From Kiritimatiellia bacterium (GTDB lineage: Bacteria; Verrucomicrobiota; Kiritimatiellia; UBA8416; YA12-FULL-48-11), in contig JAQUPZ010000004.1 of assembly GCA_028716365.1 (NCBI GenBank), positions 62,001-126,000 of the forward strand: a stretch of DNA of 64,000 bases, written 5' to 3'. Numbering within the stretch: position 1 is the first letter of the stretch; the number at the start of each line of letters is the position of its first letter. Below the pieces are notes generated by a model. It was not told where the DNA came from and ran no database searches. It worked only from the letters and a program-made list of their open reading frames with translations. Position numbers and translations under genes: made by a program. Positions 28,559-62,941 of this stretch are shown piece after piece.

Positions 28559-29029
28559 ATGTCCGTGTATAATAACCGTCAAATACCGCTAAAATATCGT
28601 TTCTATCTAATCGTCGGAATCCTTGCGTTGATAATGACAGGCTGCGCGACGATACGGCCTCCTTCCGGTCAATTGCCTGTCGAACGTAAAATGCTGGTAA
28701 CTGGTTACTGTCGTTGCGGTGAATGTTGTGGCTGGAAACGAAACTGGATAGGACTTCCCGTGGTGGCATCCGGATCGCGGAAGGGGGCTCCTAAGAAAAT
28801 CGGCATATGTGCCGATGGATCACGTGCAAAATATGGCACAATAGCTGCAGATCCAACAAAATATCCATTCGGCACAATCATGTATGTAGAAGGATACGGA
28901 TACGGTATCGTTCAGGACACAGGGGGAAAAGTAAAAGGGGAACACATTGATATATTCTTCCGCGATCATACTCAGGCACAACAATGGGGTGCAAAAAAGA
29001 ACATGGTCGTAAAAATCTGGATGCAGTAA
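28559..29029 (+). CDS. 3D-domain lipoprotein
   Basis: A 156-residue protein. The signal (YLIVGILALIMTGC) ends in a lipobox cysteine at residue 28. The C-terminal domain contains GTIAADPTKYPFGTIMYVEG, followed by VQDTGG and GEHIDIFF, the aspartate-bearing signature of the 3D domain seen in MltA-type lytic transglycosylases and RpfB-like cell-wall hydrolases. CRCGECCGW near residue 58 adds a cysteine cluster that may bind metal or form disulphides. It is probably an envelope protein that acts on peptidoglycan. It has no close operon partner. Confidence 0.85.
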   Translation: MSVYNNRQIPLKYRFYLIVGILALIMTGCATIRPPSGQLPVERKMLVTGYCRCGECCGWKRNWIGLPVVASGSRKGAPKKIGICADGSRAKYGTIAADPTKYPFGTIMYVEGYGYGIVQDTGGKVKGEHIDIFFRDHTQAQQWGAKKNMVVKIWMQ

Positions 29030-29178: not shown

Positions 29179-29250
29179 TATAATAAGGGTGTGACAGAGG
29201 AATCTGCCACAGGTGGTTTTGGGTGGTCGGGCCGCCATCCAGTTTTTTTT
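29179..29250 (+). ncRNA. Candidate small RNA or leader: TATAAT, two hairpins, U-run
   Basis: A perfect -10 hexamer TATAAT (29179-29184) is followed at the expected start point by two exact 20-base hairpins. The first is GUGACAGA-GGAA-UCUGCCAC (29191-29210), with a GNRA tetraloop and one mismatch. The second is GGGUGGUCGGGCCGCCAUCC (29221-29240), followed after two bases by eight T residues. This is the layout of a roughly 60 nt terminated transcript. It ends 45 bases before the HAMP-OtsA start, so it may be a small RNA or a transcription-attenuating leader. No -35 box was found. No known RNA family was recognised. Confidence 0.55.
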
Positions 29251-29294: not shown

Positions 29295-31529
29295 ATGAAA
29301 CGAATGCTATTATTCATCCTTCCTGTTCTTTTATTAGTTTCCATTGCCTTTACGGTGTTCGGGGTTTTTCAGGTTCGTTATGAGGAGGAGAAGCAATTAG
29401 ACGAGATTAAGAGGAAAGCCATCGCAGTCAATGAGAGCCTGGAATTTTCCGCGCGGCACATTCTTGAAAATAATGATTTAAAGAATGCTAATCGTCTGGT
29501 CGAAAGTTTCCAGAGAAGAGAAAGACTGCAGGGTTGCGTCATCTATGACAAGGAAGGCAGGGTTCTGGCTGTTACTGAACGTATTTCTGATTGGGGCAGG
29601 ACAGCGAAACCATATACCAGCGAGATACTTGTCAGCAAAACGCCCAGGGGGGCGATGGAGAAGTTCGGTGATTATACCGCATACAGTTATGTCCTGCCGA
29701 TCAAGGATGCCAATGGCGAACTTCTGGGCATGGTTGAAGTAGTTTATGATACTTCACATGTACTTACCACGATTGCTGCCATCTGGAAACGGGTGAGTAT
29801 AACATTGATTTCCCTGCTGGTTGTAATTGTCCTGATCATGCTTCTAATCCAGCGGCAGATATTTGTGTTACCTGTTATCCGCCTTACGGAATGGTTTCAA
29901 CATTTTCAGCGCGGGGAAACAGATGTATCACATTCGATCAAAGAAGAGGATGAACTTGGAAAACTTGCCAGCGAGGTTGAGCAGGTGGCGCTGAGCCTCA
30001 GAATCGCACGCAAGGCAGTGTCCGAAAAAGCTTCCGAAAGGCTGGAAAAGGAAGAATTATGGACCGAAGCCAAGCTCAGAGATATTATCCATGTCCGCCT
30101 GGGAGAGAATGCGCTTTACATGGTGTCAAATCGAGAACCATATATGCATGTTATCAATGAAATAACGGGTAAACCGGAGTGCATACGTCCGGCAGGTGGT
30201 GTTGTTACAGCCATAGATCCCATCATGCGCGCCTGCGGGGGTATGTGGATTGCCCATGGAGCAGGTAACGCCGATCGCCAATTTGTTAATTCCAAGGACA
30301 AACTTGGTGTTCCTCCGGAGGATGACAAGTACATTCTCAAGCGAGTCTGGTTATCCAAAGATGAGGAAGAAGGCTACTATTATGGATTTTCAAATGAGGG
30401 TTTGTGGCCACTCTGCCATATTACACATACAAGACCTGTTTTCAGGGAACCGGACTGGCAGGCATATAAGAAAGTAAATCAAAAATTCGCCGATAGTGTT
30501 CTGTTGGAATTACCTGTAAAGAATCCTTTCGTTTTCATCCATGATTACCATTTTACCCTCCTTGCTGGAATGATAAAGGAAAAACGACCGGATACAACTA
30601 TCGCGTTGTTCTGGCATATTCCCTGGCCGAACCCCGAAGTTTTCGCGACATGTCCGTATCAGGAACAAATACTGGAGGGAATGCTTGCATGTGATCTGAT
30701 CGGTTTCCACGTACAAATGCATTGCAATAATTTCCTCGATACAGCAAACAGGCTCCTTGAATCACGCGTAGATACCGAGGCGTTCAAGGTAATACGCTTT
30801 GGCAAAGAAACATTGATCAAAGCATTTCCTATCAGCGTGGATGACTGTACGGGCCATGATTCATCAATGGAAGACTTGCAGCAGATCAATAATCTTTGCA
30901 AAGAATATAATCTTGAAAACACCATAATTGCCATGGGAGTTGACAGAATTGATTATACAAAGGGTCTTAGCGAGCGCATTCTTGCTGTTGACAGGTTTTT
31001 TGAGAAATATCCCCAATACAAGAAAAAATTTGTTTTTATCCAATTGGCCGCACCCAGCCGTACCCATATAAAACGTTATCATGATTTTGCAGGAGAAGTA
31101 GATGAGCTGGTTGAAAAGGCAAATTGGAAGCATTCAGAGGGCGACTGGAAACCAATAATTTATCTCAAACGGCATTTTTCGCAGGAAGAAATCAGACCAT
31201 ATTATCTGATGGCGGATATCTGTATTGTAAGTTCGTTACATGATGGAATGAATCTTGTGGCAAAAGAATATGTTGCGGCAAAAAAAGATTCAAACGGAGT
31301 TTTGATTTTGAGCCGTTTTACCGGCGCCGCCAAGGAATTAACACAAGCCATACATATAAACCCTTATTCTATCGAAGAATTCGCCGACAGTATAAAGTCA
31401 GCCATTGAGATGCCAGCGGAAGAAAAAAGAAGTCGAATGGCACATATGCGCAATGTGATCAGGATCAATAATGTTTACCGATGGGCAGGTAATATCATAA
31501 CCGAATTAACGTCACTTAAGAAGATATAG
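29295..31529 (+). CDS. otsA: Membrane-anchored sensor/HAMP-trehalose-6-phosphate synthase fusion
   Basis: A 744-residue fusion. Residues 5-27 are transmembrane. Residues 28-157 form a periplasmic PAS/Cache-like sensor (CVIYDKEGRVLAVTE). Residues 167-187 are the second membrane span and about 188-242 a HAMP linker. From about 273 it is a complete GT20 trehalose-phosphate synthase (start VSNREPYMHV). GT20 signatures: VFIHDYHFTLLAGM, FWHIPWPNPE, GVDRIDYTKGLSER and SSLHDGMNLVAKEYVA. Reaction: UDP-glucose plus glucose 6-phosphate gives trehalose 6-phosphate. The sensor-HAMP part implies control by an external signal, perhaps osmotic stress. otsB follows after 12 bases. Confidence 0.92.
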   Translation: MKRMLLFILPVLLLVSIAFTVFGVFQVRYEEEKQLDEIKRKAIAVNESLEFSARHILENNDLKNANRLVESFQRRERLQGCVIYDKEGRVLAVTERISDWGRTAKPYTSEILVSKTPRGAMEKFGDYTAYSYVLPIKDANGELLGMVEVVYDTSHVLTTIAAIWKRVSITLISLLVVIVLIMLLIQRQIFVLPVIRLTEWFQHFQRGETDVSHSIKEEDELGKLASEVEQVALSLRIARKAVSEKASERLEKEELWTEAKLRDIIHVRLGENALYMVSNREPYMHVINEITGKPECIRPAGGVVTAIDPIMRACGGMWIAHGAGNADRQFVNSKDKLGVPPEDDKYILKRVWLSKDEEEGYYYGFSNEGLWPLCHITHTRPVFREPDWQAYKKVNQKFADSVLLELPVKNPFVFIHDYHFTLLAGMIKEKRPDTTIALFWHIPWPNPEVFATCPYQEQILEGMLACDLIGFHVQMHCNNFLDTANRLLESRVDTEAFKVIRFGKETLIKAFPISVDDCTGHDSSMEDLQQINNLCKEYNLENTIIAMGVDRIDYTKGLSERILAVDRFFEKYPQYKKKFVFIQLAAPSRTHIKRYHDFAGEVDELVEKANWKHSEGDWKPIIYLKRHFSQEEIRPYYLMADICIVSSLHDGMNLVAKEYVAAKKDSNGVLILSRFTGAAKELTQAIHINPYSIEEFADSIKSAIEMPAEEKRSRMAHMRNVIRINNVYRWAGNIITELTSLKKI

Positions 31530-31541
31530 AATTGCGATAAA

Positions 31542-32345
31542 ATGGAATATTTATTTAGTAATTGGAAAACAATAGAAAAGATATTGTTCCGGAAATATTG
31601 TTTTTTCTTCTTCGATTACGATGGGACTTTGGCCCCTATAGTTGATATTCCGCACAAGGCGTTTCTCCCAAAAATAACCAAACAACTCTTGTTTAGATTG
31701 TCTAAATGCCGCAACTGTAAGGTCGCCGTTATCAGCGGACGATCGCTGATTGATGTAAAGAAAAAAGTAGGGCTGGGCAGAATAATATATGCCGGCAATC
31801 ACGGCTTGGAATTAGAAGGAACACGCCTTCGATTTAAAGCCCCGGTCCCTCATGGTTTAAAGGCGATAATACAACATATAAACCATGTTTTGGCCCATGA
31901 ACTTTCAGGAATTCCGGGCGTATTCGTGGAAAATAAGGGAATAACTGTCAGCGTTCATTATCGTTTAGTCAGTCACAAGAATCTTAAATTAATGCATAAG
32001 AATTTCAGAAATGTGATTAAGCCCTATATTGAACGAAATCAAGTAGAGATTATATCCGGAAAGAAAATTTACGAAATCAAACCGTCAGTAAAATGGGGCA
32101 AAGAAAAAATTGTCTCATGGCTTCTGACAAAGCACCGGTCAGCCCGGAACAGTAAATCCATATTCCCGGTTTATATCGGGGATGACGTTGCTGATGAAAA
32201 TGTATTCAGATTCCTCAGCCATGACGGCCTGTCAATATTCGTTGGGAATCCCTGCAAAACTACGGCACAGTTTTATTTAAGGAACACAGGAGATGTTTCG
32301 GAATTCTTGCGTCGCATTGTCGTATTAATGTCTATTTCTGTCTAA
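31542..32345 (+). CDS. otsB: Trehalose-6-phosphate phosphatase
   Basis: A 267-residue HAD-superfamily phosphatase that dephosphorylates trehalose 6-phosphate in the cytoplasm. HAD motif I is FFDYDGTLAPI (nucleophile aspartate). VAVISGRSLIDV is motif II and YIGDDVADENVF is motif IV. The family segment YAGNHGLELEG lies in the cap region. The length is normal. It is downstream of the OtsA fusion by 12 bases and is certainly cotranscribed with it, giving a two-gene trehalose pathway. Confidence 0.94.
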   Translation: MEYLFSNWKTIEKILFRKYCFFFFDYDGTLAPIVDIPHKAFLPKITKQLLFRLSKCRNCKVAVISGRSLIDVKKKVGLGRIIYAGNHGLELEGTRLRFKAPVPHGLKAIIQHINHVLAHELSGIPGVFVENKGITVSVHYRLVSHKNLKLMHKNFRNVIKPYIERNQVEIISGKKIYEIKPSVKWGKEKIVSWLLTKHRSARNSKSIFPVYIGDDVADENVFRFLSHDGLSIFVGNPCKTTAQFYLRNTGDVSEFLRRIVVLMSISV

Positions 32346-32977: not shown

Positions 32978-34009
32978 TTATTCAGAACGTTTTGGTTTGT
33001 TGTCCCGTTCGTCGCCTGCAATTGCCTTGCGCATTGAACTGTCGGCATCGATATTCTGCATTCTATAAAAATCCATAACTCCCAGATTACCTTCACGGAA
33101 TGCCTGAGCCATGGCACGAGGAACTTCAGCCTGGGCTTCTACAACCTTGGCCTGCATTTCCTGGACACGGGCCCTCATTTCCTGTTCCTGTGCTACTGCC
33201 ATGGCGCGGCGGCCTTCAGCCTCTGCCTGGCGCAGTTTCTTGTCGGCCTCTGCGCGTTCGGTTTCCAACATGGCGCCAACGTTTGCAATGTCACCGCTTG
33301 TAGTTCCTGCGACACTGAGATCAGCTATATCGATGGAAACAATCTCGAACGCAGTCTGGGAATCAAGGCCGCTTTCGAGGACTTTGCGGCTGATTTTATC
33401 AGGATGTTCAAGTACTTCTTTGTAAGTTGCAGATGAACCTATTGCGCTTACGATTCCCTGTCCAACACGGGCGATAATTGTGTCTTCACCGGCTCCACCA
33501 ACGAGCCGTTCGAGGTTAGTCCGTACCGTTACACGCGCTTTTACAACCATTCGAATACCATCTTTTGCAACGGCATCCAACATTGCGGGGCCACCTTTTT
33601 TGGGGTCAGGGCAGTCGATTACCTTTGGTATTACGCTTGTTCGAACAGCATCCAGCACGTCTCGACCTGCAAGGTCAATGGCCGTTGCACGCTGGAAATT
33701 AAGGTCAATGTTTGCCTTGTCGGCGGCGATAAGGGAACGTGCAACGTTGATGACATCACCACCAGCGAGGTAATGCGCCTCGAGCATATCGGTCGAAAGG
33801 TCGAGTCCGGCCTTGATTATACTTATGCGGGCATCAACAATGAGAGATGGCGGGACGTTCCTGAGTTTCATACCTATAAGCGAAAAGATAGACACTTTGG
33901 CACCAGCTGCCAATGCTTTGACCCATACCCTGAGGAACATGAAAATCACTATCACAAACGCTATTACCAGTATTACGCCAATGCCTGTAATGATCTGCAC
34001 TATGTTCAT
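32978..34009 (-). CDS. floA: Flotillin-like protein FloA
   Basis: A 343-residue protein of the UPF0365/FloA family. An N-terminal membrane segment ([19 protein letters not shown]) is followed by a conserved cytoplasmic SPFH-like core ([51 protein letters not shown]). The C-terminal region has EA-rich coiled helices ([33 protein letters not shown] in part). Known: FloA assembles into membrane foci that organise functional microdomains, usually encoded beside NfeD proteins. This is the case here, with nfeD genes immediately upstream on the same strand. Confidence 0.95.
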
Positions 34010-34029
34010 ACGATCTATCTCCTTGCTTT

Positions 34030-34509
34030 TTACTTCGCTGCCTCGACAACCACGCGGCTGCCATCAATTTTAATTACTGTAATTTTAATACCTTTTTCAA
34101 TCATTTCACCCTGGGTAACGACATCAATCCTCTTGCCGTTGATGGTGGCAAATCCAGCTGGTCTTAATTCGGATGCTGTTTCACCATCTTTGCCCAAAAG
34201 TTCACTGTAGTCGCTGGCTGATTTTGATGTCGAGAGATCCTTTCCAACGATTATTTTCATTCCTATTCGTGACGCCGGGAAATATTTCATCCAGATGATT
34301 ATTGTAATAACTGCGACTATGACGATACCTATCAGGGCGTATGTTCCGCCTATAACTCCAAAAGCGACATAACCTGTAATTACGGCGGCAAACAGGGCTA
34401 TTCCACCGATAGTTCCGAGAATAGCACCCGGGGTATACAATTCAGCCCCGATCAGGATCAAGCCCGTAACTACAAAAATAATGAACAGATTCACAGATGT
34501 GTTAGGCAT
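34030..34509 (-). CDS. NfeD-family membrane protein with OB-fold tail
   Basis: A 159-residue protein. Three hydrophobic spans ([55 protein letters not shown]) are followed by a soluble OB-fold domain ([28 protein letters not shown]). Known: short NfeD proteins partner FloA or stomatin-like proteins. It sits 20 bases upstream of floA and 9 bases after the long NfeD gene, so all three are one operon. Confidence 0.9.
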
Positions 34510-34518
34510 TGTTTTTCC

Positions 34519-35925
34519 TTAAACCTTTCTTTCCACAACTATACGGTTTCCATGGGTTTCGGCAATTATAATTCTTGTGTCTTTTTCTAAGAACTCCCCG
34601 CGTGTTACGACGTCAAGCCTTTTACCGGCAAAGACGGCCGTACCGCTTGGGCGCAGTTCGGAAAGGGCAACCCCCTCCGTACCCACAAGGCTTGCGGTAT
34701 CTTCACTTGATGCATGGAACCCATCATGCCTGTTTTCCGATATAAGAAGCATAAGGTTTTGGAAGGCCTTGGTTTCCGGCAAGAACCGCGCAAGCAACCA
34801 GGCTATGACAAAAGTGGCAATGATTTGTATACCGAGTTTTGAGATCGCACCGGGCATTCTTTTGAAATCGGGCTGCCACGGAACTCCGGGATAATGACCA
34901 GCCATAGCCATGAGAAGCGACATGAAAATCAGGAGAGTGCCAATAGCTCCGGGAAGTATTGTACCTGGAAAGAAGAATACTTCTGATGCCAGGAGTAGAA
35001 TTCCGAGCATAAACAGCACCAGTTCCCACATACCCGCTAAACCAGCTATGTGATAACCCCAGAACCAGATTGCAAGAAGTATGACACCTATTATACCGGG
35101 AAGAACAACGCCGGGTGTTTTGAATTCGATGTACAGTCCCAGAAGCCCGCCCATCAGAAACAGTGCTGAAAACATTTCGATATACCGGGCAATTTTTTCG
35201 GCAGCATCCACCTTCAAGGTAACTATCCTACTCTTCGGGTGGCCGATTTTGTCAAGTAAACCAGCAAGGTTCTCGACTGTTCCTTTGGAAAGGAGTGACC
35301 GTTTTTTACCATCTTTACCGACGAGACGCTCAGCCTCGACATTTGTCAGGGTAAGTATCTGGTTGGACGGACAGATTACCTCATTTTCTATCTTGTATTC
35401 CGGACCACGTCGCACCATTGCCTCCGCCAACTTGGGATCATGATTCTTACGTTGGGCGGTAGTCCTTATGAGTCCTGACACATACGACACCATTTTTTCT
35501 TCGATTGCCGCTGGCATTTCCTGGGGGGCGCCAATGGGTGACATCAGGAGCGGCATGGCATCGCCAATATTACTGCCGGGCGCCATGTATATTTCATCCG
35601 TGGCGAGAGATATTATTGCGCCGGCTGATATCGCCCTCGGATTGACGAATGTATAGGTCTTGATTTTGGTGTTTGCAATTATGGCAATGATATCTTCCGC
35701 GGCATCCACGCGGCCACCGGGTGTATTCATGTCGAAGATAATTGCAGAGGCTCCCTCGGAAACCGCCTCGTCAACACCACGGCGTATAACATAGACCAGC
35801 CCGCGTTCAATCATATCTTTTACAGGAATTACATATACAACATCCTTCTTCGATTCCGCTTGCACAGGTATCAGCAGAACAAGGCACAAAAACACCAGCA
35901 TTAATGTAAAAATGAATGGTTTCAT
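34519..35925 (-). CDS. NfeD-family membrane serine protease (ClpP-like domain, TM bundle, OB tail)
   Basis: A 468-residue protein. A signal segment (FIFTLMLVFLCLVLLIPVQA) leads into a ClpP-like domain with DMNTPGGRVDAAEDI and FVNPRAISAGAIISLA, in which the serine of ISAG is the likely nucleophile. Residues 250-400 carry four or five membrane spans. The C-terminal OB domain repeats the GTEGVALSELRPSGTAVFAGKRLDVV pattern of the shorter NfeD. Known: the archaeal homologue cleaves stomatin. Here it may process or control FloA. It starts 10 bases from the divergent end of the region before the FolM-like gene. Confidence 0.92.
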   Translation of the reverse strand: MKPFIFTLMLVFLCLVLLIPVQAESKKDVVYVIPVKDMIERGLVYVIRRGVDEAVSEGASAIIFDMNTPGGRVDAAEDIIAIIANTKIKTYTFVNPRAISAGAIISLATDEIYMAPGSNIGDAMPLLMSPIGAPQEMPAAIEEKMVSYVSGLIRTTAQRKNHDPKLAEAMVRRGPEYKIENEVICPSNQILTLTNVEAERLVGKDGKKRSLLSKGTVENLAGLLDKIGHPKSRIVTLKVDAAEKIARYIEMFSALFLMGGLLGLYIEFKTPGVVLPGIIGVILLAIWFWGYHIAGLAGMWELVLFMLGILLLASEVFFFPGTILPGAIGTLLIFMSLLMAMAGHYPGVPWQPDFKRMPGAISKLGIQIIATFVIAWLLARFLPETKAFQNLMLLISENRHDGFHASSEDTASLVGTEGVALSELRPSGTAVFAGKRLDVVTRGEFLEKDTRIIIAETHGNRIVVERKV

Positions 35926-60460: not shown

Positions 60461-62941
60461 ATGGCTGATTCAATTGTAAATCATTCTGTAACGCAAAAAG
60501 GATCACGCAAGGGGTTTCGTGTGATTCTTCTTTTGTCCCTGTTATCCATGGAAATCGTAGTCCTTGTCGGGGGTACGCTTTTAAAGTCATGGGAAACCGC
60601 GTCGGCAGATATCTTGATGACCTGGCGTTATATGCTGACGCCGGACCCTGAAACACTGGTTAATCCCGAGATTGTTGTCCTTTCAATCGATACAAAAACA
60701 CAAAATCGGATGGGCCGATTTCCTGCCGGCAAGTGGCTTTCGAGAGAGGCGTATTCGGATCAACTGTCGTTTTTTGACAATTTCCTGCATCCAACTGTAT
60801 TGGCGTATGACATTGTTTTCCAGGATATCGTCGGTGACAGTATCAGGGGGAGTCAGGACGTTAACAGTTCGTCGGAGAAGCTTTTACGAGTAATGAACGG
60901 GCTCAAAAGGATTGCCAATGATCCGAATGAATCACTCGATGATCAGACTCTCTATGACATGAACAGCTTTGCCCTTGAGCAGGGTAATCTAAATATGGCT
61001 CATCGTATGGCTTCAATTTCTGAAAATAAACGTTTCCATCCCGTCATCGGTTACTATTTTCGCACACAGGCTCAACATTCTAAAGATGAAAAAGTCAATG
61101 GATGGACAGATCAGGAAATATTTGGTTCTGACAAGACGGGGGATGAGTCGAAAGGGACTGCGATTCCGTATATTCTGGACATTTCAATCCCTGCTGACGA
61201 CATACATTTTTCAGCACATCAGAAGTATGATTACCAGGGCGGTGCCATGCTGCCCAGCAGCGAATTGCTGGATTATTCAATGCTTGGCTTTTTAAATGCA
61301 CCGCCGGATGCAGATGGCATAATGCGTATGGTCCCTCTGGTACTTGGATTCAAGTATTACAACTCGATAAAACATGTAGAAAAGAAAGTATTCGTTCCTT
61401 CATTTGCACTTATGGCATGCATACTGCATTTCGGCCTGGATTTCCCACTTGCGACGGGTGCCGTCGAGGTTTATCTGGGACACGAAATTATTATTCATTC
61501 TCCCAGTCGTGGTGATATTCATGTACCAATAGATGGAAAAGGGCGCATGTATCTGAATTTTACCGCCAAGTTTAATGATTTTAATGCCGTAAGTTTTGCT
61601 GATGTGGCTCCATCTTCGTCCGGCACGTCAAAGGAATTCAAGAAAAAAGTAGCCCAGGTGTATCGGGACCGTCTGAATGGGCGCATGATTATGGCCGGTA
61701 TTAACAGCGCTGGGCTGGATATTGGTCCTTGTCCCATCGAAGCAAGAAGTCCCTTGATGATAGTTCATCTAACTGCGGTAAATAATATTCTTAACAGGGA
61801 ATTCGTAAGACCTCTTCATACGATGGGTAAGTTTATTATGTGGGGATGCCTGTTTGTGGCATTTTCAATAGTTTGTCTTCTGGAAAAAACGGCTCGTCTG
61901 GGTTTCGCGACTCTTTTATTTGCTGTCCTCTATGTTATTGTGGCATTTGCCTGCATTTGCCGAAGCTGGGCCATTCTTCCGATCATCAATCCATTGATTT
62001 ATATCGCCGTATGTTCGTTAATGGTACTTTCCTACAGGTTTCTTGCAGAAGAAAAAGCGAGAAGACGTATCCGTGATATGTTTTCAACGATGGTTTCCGA
62101 TCAGGTTTTGAGTTATCTCGAAGAAAATCCTGGAAGTTTTTCCCTTCGTGGACACAATGTGGAAGCAACTGTTTTGTTTTCGGATGTCGTAAACTTTACT
62201 GGAATAAGTGAACGATTATCGCCGGAGCGATTAACTGAACTGTTAAATCGTTATCTAACGCCGGCAACCGATTTGATACTGAATCACGGAGGATATGTTG
62301 ACAAATATGTTGGTGATGGAATTATGGCTGTTTGGGGCGCTCCATATCCTGATCCTGATCATGCATTGAAAGCGTGCTTGTCTGCCATGCGACAACAGGA
62401 GATGCTGTTGTCGCTCAATCAAAGGCTTGTTAAAGAATTTGGAATTGAAATTTCCGTCAGAATGGGACTTAACTCCGGAACAGTAAAAGCCGGTAATATG
62501 GGCTCAGAGCGGAAATTCCAATATACCGTTATCGGCGATATCGTTAATCTTGCATCGCGTCTTGAACCGACCAATAAGGATTTTGGAACAAAAATAATCA
62601 TCGGTGATGTTACCAATCAAATGGTTAAAGGCAAAATTATCACCAGGCATCTTGGTAAAATTATTGTTGTAGGCAAAGAAGACGCTGTTTCGATTTACGA
62701 AGTCATTGGAGAACATGGCAAGGTCGAGGCTGGGAAACTGGAAGTCATTTCACTATACGAAACAGCCTTAAAACAATTTTATTCCAGGTCCTGGCATGAT
62801 TGTATTGTTACAATCGACTCCATACTCAAAATTGCCAGCGATGGACCATCAGTTCACTTGCGTCGAAGAGCTGAATATTATCAGTTAAATCCTCCGGATG
62901 CCGACTGGCAGGGTGAATACATACGAAGCGAAAAAAACTAA
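60461..62941 (+). CDS. CHASE2-domain adenylate/guanylate cyclase
   Basis: An 826-residue membrane protein. A short cytoplasmic start and a first membrane span (VILLLSLLSMEIVVLVGGTLL) precede a CHASE2 extracellular sensor (about residues 50-430). It has three further spans (FIMWGCLFVAFSIVCLL, FATLLFAVLYVIVAFACI, IINPLIYIAVCSLMVL) and a class III cyclase domain. The catalytic metal aspartates are in ATVLFSDVVNFTG and KYVGDGIMAVWG, and GLNSGTVKAGNMGS follows. It makes cAMP (or cGMP) in response to a periplasmic signal. It overlaps the histidine kinase tail-to-tail by 4 bases. Confidence 0.93.
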   Translation: MADSIVNHSVTQKGSRKGFRVILLLSLLSMEIVVLVGGTLLKSWETASADILMTWRYMLTPDPETLVNPEIVVLSIDTKTQNRMGRFPAGKWLSREAYSDQLSFFDNFLHPTVLAYDIVFQDIVGDSIRGSQDVNSSSEKLLRVMNGLKRIANDPNESLDDQTLYDMNSFALEQGNLNMAHRMASISENKRFHPVIGYYFRTQAQHSKDEKVNGWTDQEIFGSDKTGDESKGTAIPYILDISIPADDIHFSAHQKYDYQGGAMLPSSELLDYSMLGFLNAPPDADGIMRMVPLVLGFKYYNSIKHVEKKVFVPSFALMACILHFGLDFPLATGAVEVYLGHEIIIHSPSRGDIHVPIDGKGRMYLNFTAKFNDFNAVSFADVAPSSSGTSKEFKKKVAQVYRDRLNGRMIMAGINSAGLDIGPCPIEARSPLMIVHLTAVNNILNREFVRPLHTMGKFIMWGCLFVAFSIVCLLEKTARLGFATLLFAVLYVIVAFACICRSWAILPIINPLIYIAVCSLMVLSYRFLAEEKARRRIRDMFSTMVSDQVLSYLEENPGSFSLRGHNVEATVLFSDVVNFTGISERLSPERLTELLNRYLTPATDLILNHGGYVDKYVGDGIMAVWGAPYPDPDHALKACLSAMRQQEMLLSLNQRLVKEFGIEISVRMGLNSGTVKAGNMGSERKFQYTVIGDIVNLASRLEPTNKDFGTKIIIGDVTNQMVKGKIITRHLGKIIVVGKEDAVSIYEVIGEHGKVEAGKLEVISLYETALKQFYSRSWHDCIVTIDSILKIASDGPSVHLRRRAEYYQLNPPDADWQGEYIRSEKN

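Follow-up and report, generated by a model that had tools for sequence, protein, structure and literature searches.

Known systems and the gene compared with them

Trehalose-6-phosphate synthases (TPSs) of the GT20 family, such as OtsA of E. coli and its counterparts in Mycobacterium and fungi (Tps1), are known as soluble enzymes, and bifunctional OtsA-OtsB proteins join such an enzyme to a second one of the same pathway. Single-Cache/HAMP receptors (the histidine kinases WalK, CitA and DcuS, chemoreceptors and cyclases) have an input half ordered transmembrane helix (TM)-Cache-TM-HAMP, followed by a kinase, a methyl-accepting domain or a cyclase. The outputs known for HAMP receptors are kinases, chemotaxis, cyclases and phosphatases. 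The gene described here brings these two kinds of protein together. It lies at positions 29295-31529 (+ strand) of a 64,000-nucleotide stretch of contig JAQUPZ010000004.1 from a Kiritimatiellia bacterium, referred to below as the window. From an ATG start it encodes a 744-residue protein whose architecture, established from the list of open reading frames, Pfam, NCBIfam and AlphaFold, is TM-sCache-TM-HAMP-GT20.

With the soluble TPSs the window protein shares the full catalytic domain, its fold, the active-site residues and an otsB neighbor, whereas it adds a transmembrane Cache-HAMP input and belongs to a distinct GT20 subclade. With the receptors it shares the input half and its topology, but its output is a metabolic glycosyltransferase. 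Like the OtsA-OtsB fusions, it joins a GT20 enzyme to another domain, although the partner is a receptor and not an enzyme. A search of the literature at hand found no description of a TPS-HAMP fusion.

A third described system is found directly ahead of the gene. The nhaA-I (Li+-I) riboswitch and its Na+-II variants have been characterized, and an association with "a TPS gene" was left unexplained (White et al. 2022, PMC9646797). The aptamer in the window fits the published consensus, and most of its relatives carry terminator platforms as for Na+-II; here, however, it would control the sensor-TPS (or, at other loci, mscS followed by the sensor-TPS) instead of nhaA. Terminator variants, reported from Deltaproteobacteria only (PMC9646797), are common in Omnitrophota. 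On balance, the locus is best read as a receptor-enzyme for osmolyte synthesis under two-tier control, the riboswitch setting synthesis of the protein and the Cache-HAMP receptor setting its activity.

Domain architecture and topology

Two strong hydrophobic spans, at residues 4-22 (29304-29360, +; hydropathy 2.81) and 167-185 (29793-29849, +; hydropathy 3.25), occupy common positions in all 24 aligned homologs. They enclose a periplasmic single Cache domain (residues 27-163; 29373-29783, +), which is matched over cut-off by Pfam sCache_3_2 at residues 37-160 and resembles the sensor domains of WalK, CitA, DcuS and DctB in fold. The same family is detected in 16 of the 24 homologs. Modeled alone, residues 1-260 retrieve from the PDB the sensor domains of WalK, CitA, DcuS, KinD and DctB; Cache is an established sensor fold.

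The second helix leads into a HAMP domain (residues 188-240; 29856-30014, +). Its Pfam match is sub-threshold in the window protein, while detection at E<=0.1 extends to 12 of the 24 aligned family members, with a best value of 1e-4. The canonical marks P193, G207 and a DELGKL motif at about 219-224 are present, with P193 and L224 invariant in the family alignment. Coiled-coil or linker helices (residues 241-271; 30015-30107, +) follow, constant in length throughout the family and with zero indels relative to the window protein in 24 homologs; soluble sister enzymes start at about residue 255. An AlphaFold model built with the family alignment (mean predicted local distance difference test score 82) gives the order helix 2-58, alpha/beta sensor, helix 154-205, HAMP loop 206-219, helix 220-252 and then GT20, with HAMP as a helix-loop-helix. 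This is the standard receptor layout.

The sequence-only reading had placed the open reading frame exactly and had proposed two membrane spans and a complete GT20 domain, all of which were borne out. It had said nothing of otsB, of the riboswitch ahead of the gene, of the class of sensor or of how widely the family occurs. An assembly chimera, a frameshift or a chance arrangement is ruled out by the retention of the full-length fusion over 744 residues in many independent genomes and contigs.

The enzyme half and its pathway

The GT20 domain (residues 275-739; 30117-31511, +) is complete, scoring 401.6 bits against a Pfam cut-off of 32.5 (E 6e-120). Eleven candidate active-site residues align with those of solved TPSs: R280, W318, Y362, W371, D417, H441, R551, K556, R589, D650 and E658. 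We take these to be the equivalents of E. coli OtsA R9, W40, Y76, W85, D130, H154, R262, K267, R300, D361 and E369, respectively. All 11 positions are invariant across 24 relatives. In a fold search, the top structural matches of the full model are TPSs exclusively, with template modeling scores of up to 0.91 on the target. The subfamily is divergent, at about 30-33% identity to the solved enzymes. Among NCBIfam models, the OtsA equivalog TIGR02400 scores 433.6 bits, under its cut-off of 564.9, and the glucosylglycerol-phosphate synthase TIGR02398 scores lower still at 312.8 bits against a cut-off of 569. By these scores the domain is assigned to the OtsA function class, yet outside the curated OtsA equivalog.

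The otsB gene for trehalose-6-phosphate (T6P) phosphatase (31542-32345, +; TIGR00685, 162.8 bits against a cut-off of 68) starts 12 bp past the stop codon of the fusion and lies downstream of the fused gene in most relatives as well. Because it adjoins, the T6P product can proceed to trehalose. The fused gene is the single GT20 gene of the 5.8 Mb host genome. In that genome TreS gave no match above cut-off and trehalase was not found, so that a second GT20 or a TreS route was rejected; TreYZ was not searched for. Convergent with otsB is a gene for a FloA flotillin flanked by NfeD-type genes (32978-35925, -). Elsewhere in the window, a CHASE2 sensor is fused to an adenylate/guanylate cyclase domain (60461-62941, +).

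Distribution and evolution of the fusion

A search for the architecture in other genomes, as the sequence-only reading had proposed, recovered it from several phyla. Full-length relatives were found in Omnitrophota, Syntrophales, Eisenbacteria and Elusimicrobia at 64-76% identity, and in Acidobacteria, Rokubacteria and Chlorobi at 42-46%. A sample of 237 Omnitrophota genomes contains 64 fused genes, whose match begins essentially at residue 1. It also has 52 sensor-less genes, which belong to that GT20 subfamily too and start at about residue 250. Within the host's own phylum, the fusion is present in just 2 of 289 genomes. The host 16S rRNA has a perfect Pla46 site, which may point to Planctomycetota. 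In a tree of the GT20 domain, all 40 fused sequences fall on one side of a branch with a Shimodaira-Hasegawa-like approximate likelihood ratio of 88, and the soluble Omnitrophota enzymes form the sister group of this clade. The window sequence and that of a relative, G002, are nested in an Omnitrophota-rich clade. The simplest reading is a single fusion event and subsequent spread, which would include transfer into the host lineage. A plasmid carriage check yielded 122 matches, none covering the sensor.

Ratios of nonsynonymous to synonymous substitution (dN/dS), taken from the closest pair (L008/L009) as other pairs were saturated at synonymous sites, are 0.046 for Cache, 0 for HAMP plus linker and 0.061 for GT20. 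Sensor and enzyme are thus under the same purifying selection. A vestigial sensor is disfavored, the Cache ratio being similar to that of the enzyme.

A riboswitch ahead of the gene

The nhaA-I aptamer (RF03057; Li+-I/Na+-II class), comprising P1, a linker and P2, spans positions 29187-29240 (+) and, at 47.0 bits, clears the gathering score of 37. It is the sole RNA matched by Rfam in the whole window, and its 3′ end lies 54 nucleotides (nt) from the ATG of the fused gene on the same strand. The P2 hairpin followed by AG and eight T residues (29219-29250, +) forms a terminator-like expression platform, as judged from a terminator scan, local folding and a comparison of 50 platforms; when the whole leader was folded, no structure reached significance (z 0.00). 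Control of the window operon by the riboswitch is very probable. The sequence-only reading had contrasted the fusion with soluble enzymes controlled by expression. That contrast is wrong here, as the gene carries an expression switch as well.

The terminator of most relatives arises from new pairing between the 3′ arm of P2 and a segment further downstream, so that ligand-stabilized P2 would mean ON. The association itself is widespread: nhaA-I also precedes the fused gene in Omnitrophota and Elusimicrobia relatives, in one case in tandem. Among the Omnitrophota genomes it lies at most 2 kb upstream of 35 of the 64 fused genes, within 254 nt in 23 cases and at about 1.07-1.6 kb in 12. By comparison, it precedes 3 of the 52 soluble-sister genes, one of which resembles a split fused gene, and none of 16 other GT20 genes. 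Counted by genome, the riboswitch is present in 46 of 65 with a fused gene and in 12 of 172 others (Fisher p 1e-22, uncorrected for kinship). In the inspected cases of the distant class, an MscS channel gene sits between riboswitch and fused gene, which suggests that about a third of the riboswitches act via mscS as first gene of the operon.

As for the ion, the loop nucleotide ahead of CGGGC is C in 8 of 87 collected aptamers. Desulfobacterota loci L137-L166 are polymorphic for U and C at this position (C in L146, L153, L159, L162, L164 and L166), and this difference may be a signature of Na+-II variants. The osmotic context favors Na+ as the riboswitch ion, the window sequence being compatible with Na+ or Li+.

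Other observations concern the reach of this riboswitch class and its surroundings. A Na+/Ca2+ exchanger is another first gene behind nhaA-I in Omnitrophota genomes. Omnitrophota loci L060, L062, L064, L066 and L067 have nhaA-I and a terminator before HflK/SPFH-like, Na+/Ca2+ exchanger and NfeD-like genes, the Pfam check among these first genes having been made for the L064 exchanger; judging from these loci, the nhaA-I regulon is wider than published. The host genome has a second, stronger nhaA-I match of 57.9 bits (L053, G000:C13:64362-64415) before a gene for a membrane protein of about 105 residues, which has no Pfam match, and a third of 34 bits (L055), under threshold. In G002 a small membrane-protein gene separates the riboswitch from the fused gene (L070), and by eye it is an apparent homolog of the one behind L053. 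Directly upstream of the window riboswitch lies a gene (28559-29029, +) for a 3D-domain protein that seems to have a lipoprotein signal; the gene is not conserved beside the fused gene in relatives.

A proposed route from sensor to catalysis

Direct control of the enzyme by the sensor is the most likely reading of this fixed-register fusion, because the linker is free of indels, sensor and enzyme have similar dN/dS and the clade has a single origin. The sensor probably does control catalysis. The sequence-only reading had proposed that an external signal such as osmolarity directly switches trehalose synthesis. On the above grounds, the part of it that stands is an intact TPS to which a receptor-type input is joined in a fixed register; osmolarity as the cue is suggested by the context of otsB, MscS and an alkali-cation riboswitch. 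A cue of an osmotic or ionic kind is about as likely as not.

Mechanistically, an extracytoplasmic cue would alter the packing of a Cache-HAMP dimer. The resulting HAMP motion would enter the N-terminal lobe of GT20 beside the mobile N-loop, on which the essential R280 sits (presumably equivalent to OtsA R9), and catalytic activity would be set by that motion without a second messenger. The soluble sisters start just before W256, which implies that the HAMP helix joins the N-terminal helix of the enzyme directly, near the SNR motif with R280. In OtsA the N-loop bearing the arginine is reported to move during catalysis (PMC5685639). Given such mobility and the direct helix junction, HAMP could plausibly act on catalysis by mechanical means. 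In parallel, the riboswitch would sense intracellular Na+ (or Li+) and set the amount of sensor-TPS and OtsB. Trehalose would then be made only when the internal cation load and the outside signal agree, and the likeliest physiological setting would be osmotic or salt stress. The chances are about equal that this holds in full, that is, that a Cache-HAMP receptor has a biosynthetic enzyme as its direct output and links an extracellular signal to osmolyte synthesis within one polypeptide, the dose being set by a riboswitch, as a gate requiring both an inside cation and an outside signal, and that the system spread across several phyla by descent and horizontal transfer.

Several observations weigh against this picture. 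HAMP at residues 191-236 of the window protein reaches 14.5 bits against a Pfam cut-off of 25; the HAMP linker of the sequence-only reading agrees with the motif, the model and the relatives' E-values, and falls short on this score. An Acidobacteria fused TPS (L028) has lost Cache but keeps both TM helices and HAMP, so that sensing can be dispensed with in some cases. Roughly half of the fused genes have no detected riboswitch. In the window P2 abuts the T8 tract, whereas inspected Omnitrophota relatives have a re-pairing terminator; P2 may therefore itself be the terminator, which leaves the sign of the switch in the window uncertain and an inverted (OFF) or other mode of control possible. 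Lastly, both the window and most relatives have U as the nucleotide ahead of CGGGC, as do Li+-I RNAs. Position 54 of the D. propionicus RNA, where C for U accompanies Na+-II specificity, is assumed here to be this loop nucleotide. If so, the window RNA would not be a plain Na+-II variant.

The best-surviving alternative is that the membrane part does not switch activity and serves just to tether the synthase or gather it into clusters, for instance close to OtsB, MscS or sugar uptake. The Cache-less L028 and the existence of sensor-less soluble sisters fit this idea, but a periplasmic domain under purifying selection, a HAMP domain and a linker of fixed length exceed the needs of an anchor, and Cache is a fold for sensing; anchoring is rather unlikely. 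Information could also flow in reverse or through partners: the protein would then act chiefly as a receptor, its GT20 domain reading out the status of T6P or sugar phosphates, and catalysis would be secondary. A precedent comes from Arthrobacter, where OtsA has a second, non-enzymatic function in sensing osmotic stress (PMC5685639). Against it stand the invariance of every active-site residue examined, an adjacent otsB at most loci and the lack of any other GT20 gene in the host genome, which together make a reversed flow improbable. Slightly less credible still is a product other than T6P, such as glucosylglycerol phosphate: subfamily divergence and the score under the OtsA cut-off allow for it, but the OtsA model outscores the glucosylglycerol-phosphate one (434 against 313 bits) and the next gene downstream encodes a true T6P phosphatase.

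Implications for trehalose control

A conserved clade in which the HAMP output is a pathway enzyme would, if true, amount to an osmo-response in one protein. The TPS in the puzzle left by White et al. 2022 is, in Omnitrophota and relatives, mostly of the membrane-sensor form, and MscS and OtsB are often encoded in its operon; this favors salt or osmotic control. Riboswitch and receptor-enzyme recur together in many uncultured bacteria, a sign that control of this osmotic protectant may be built in at two levels.
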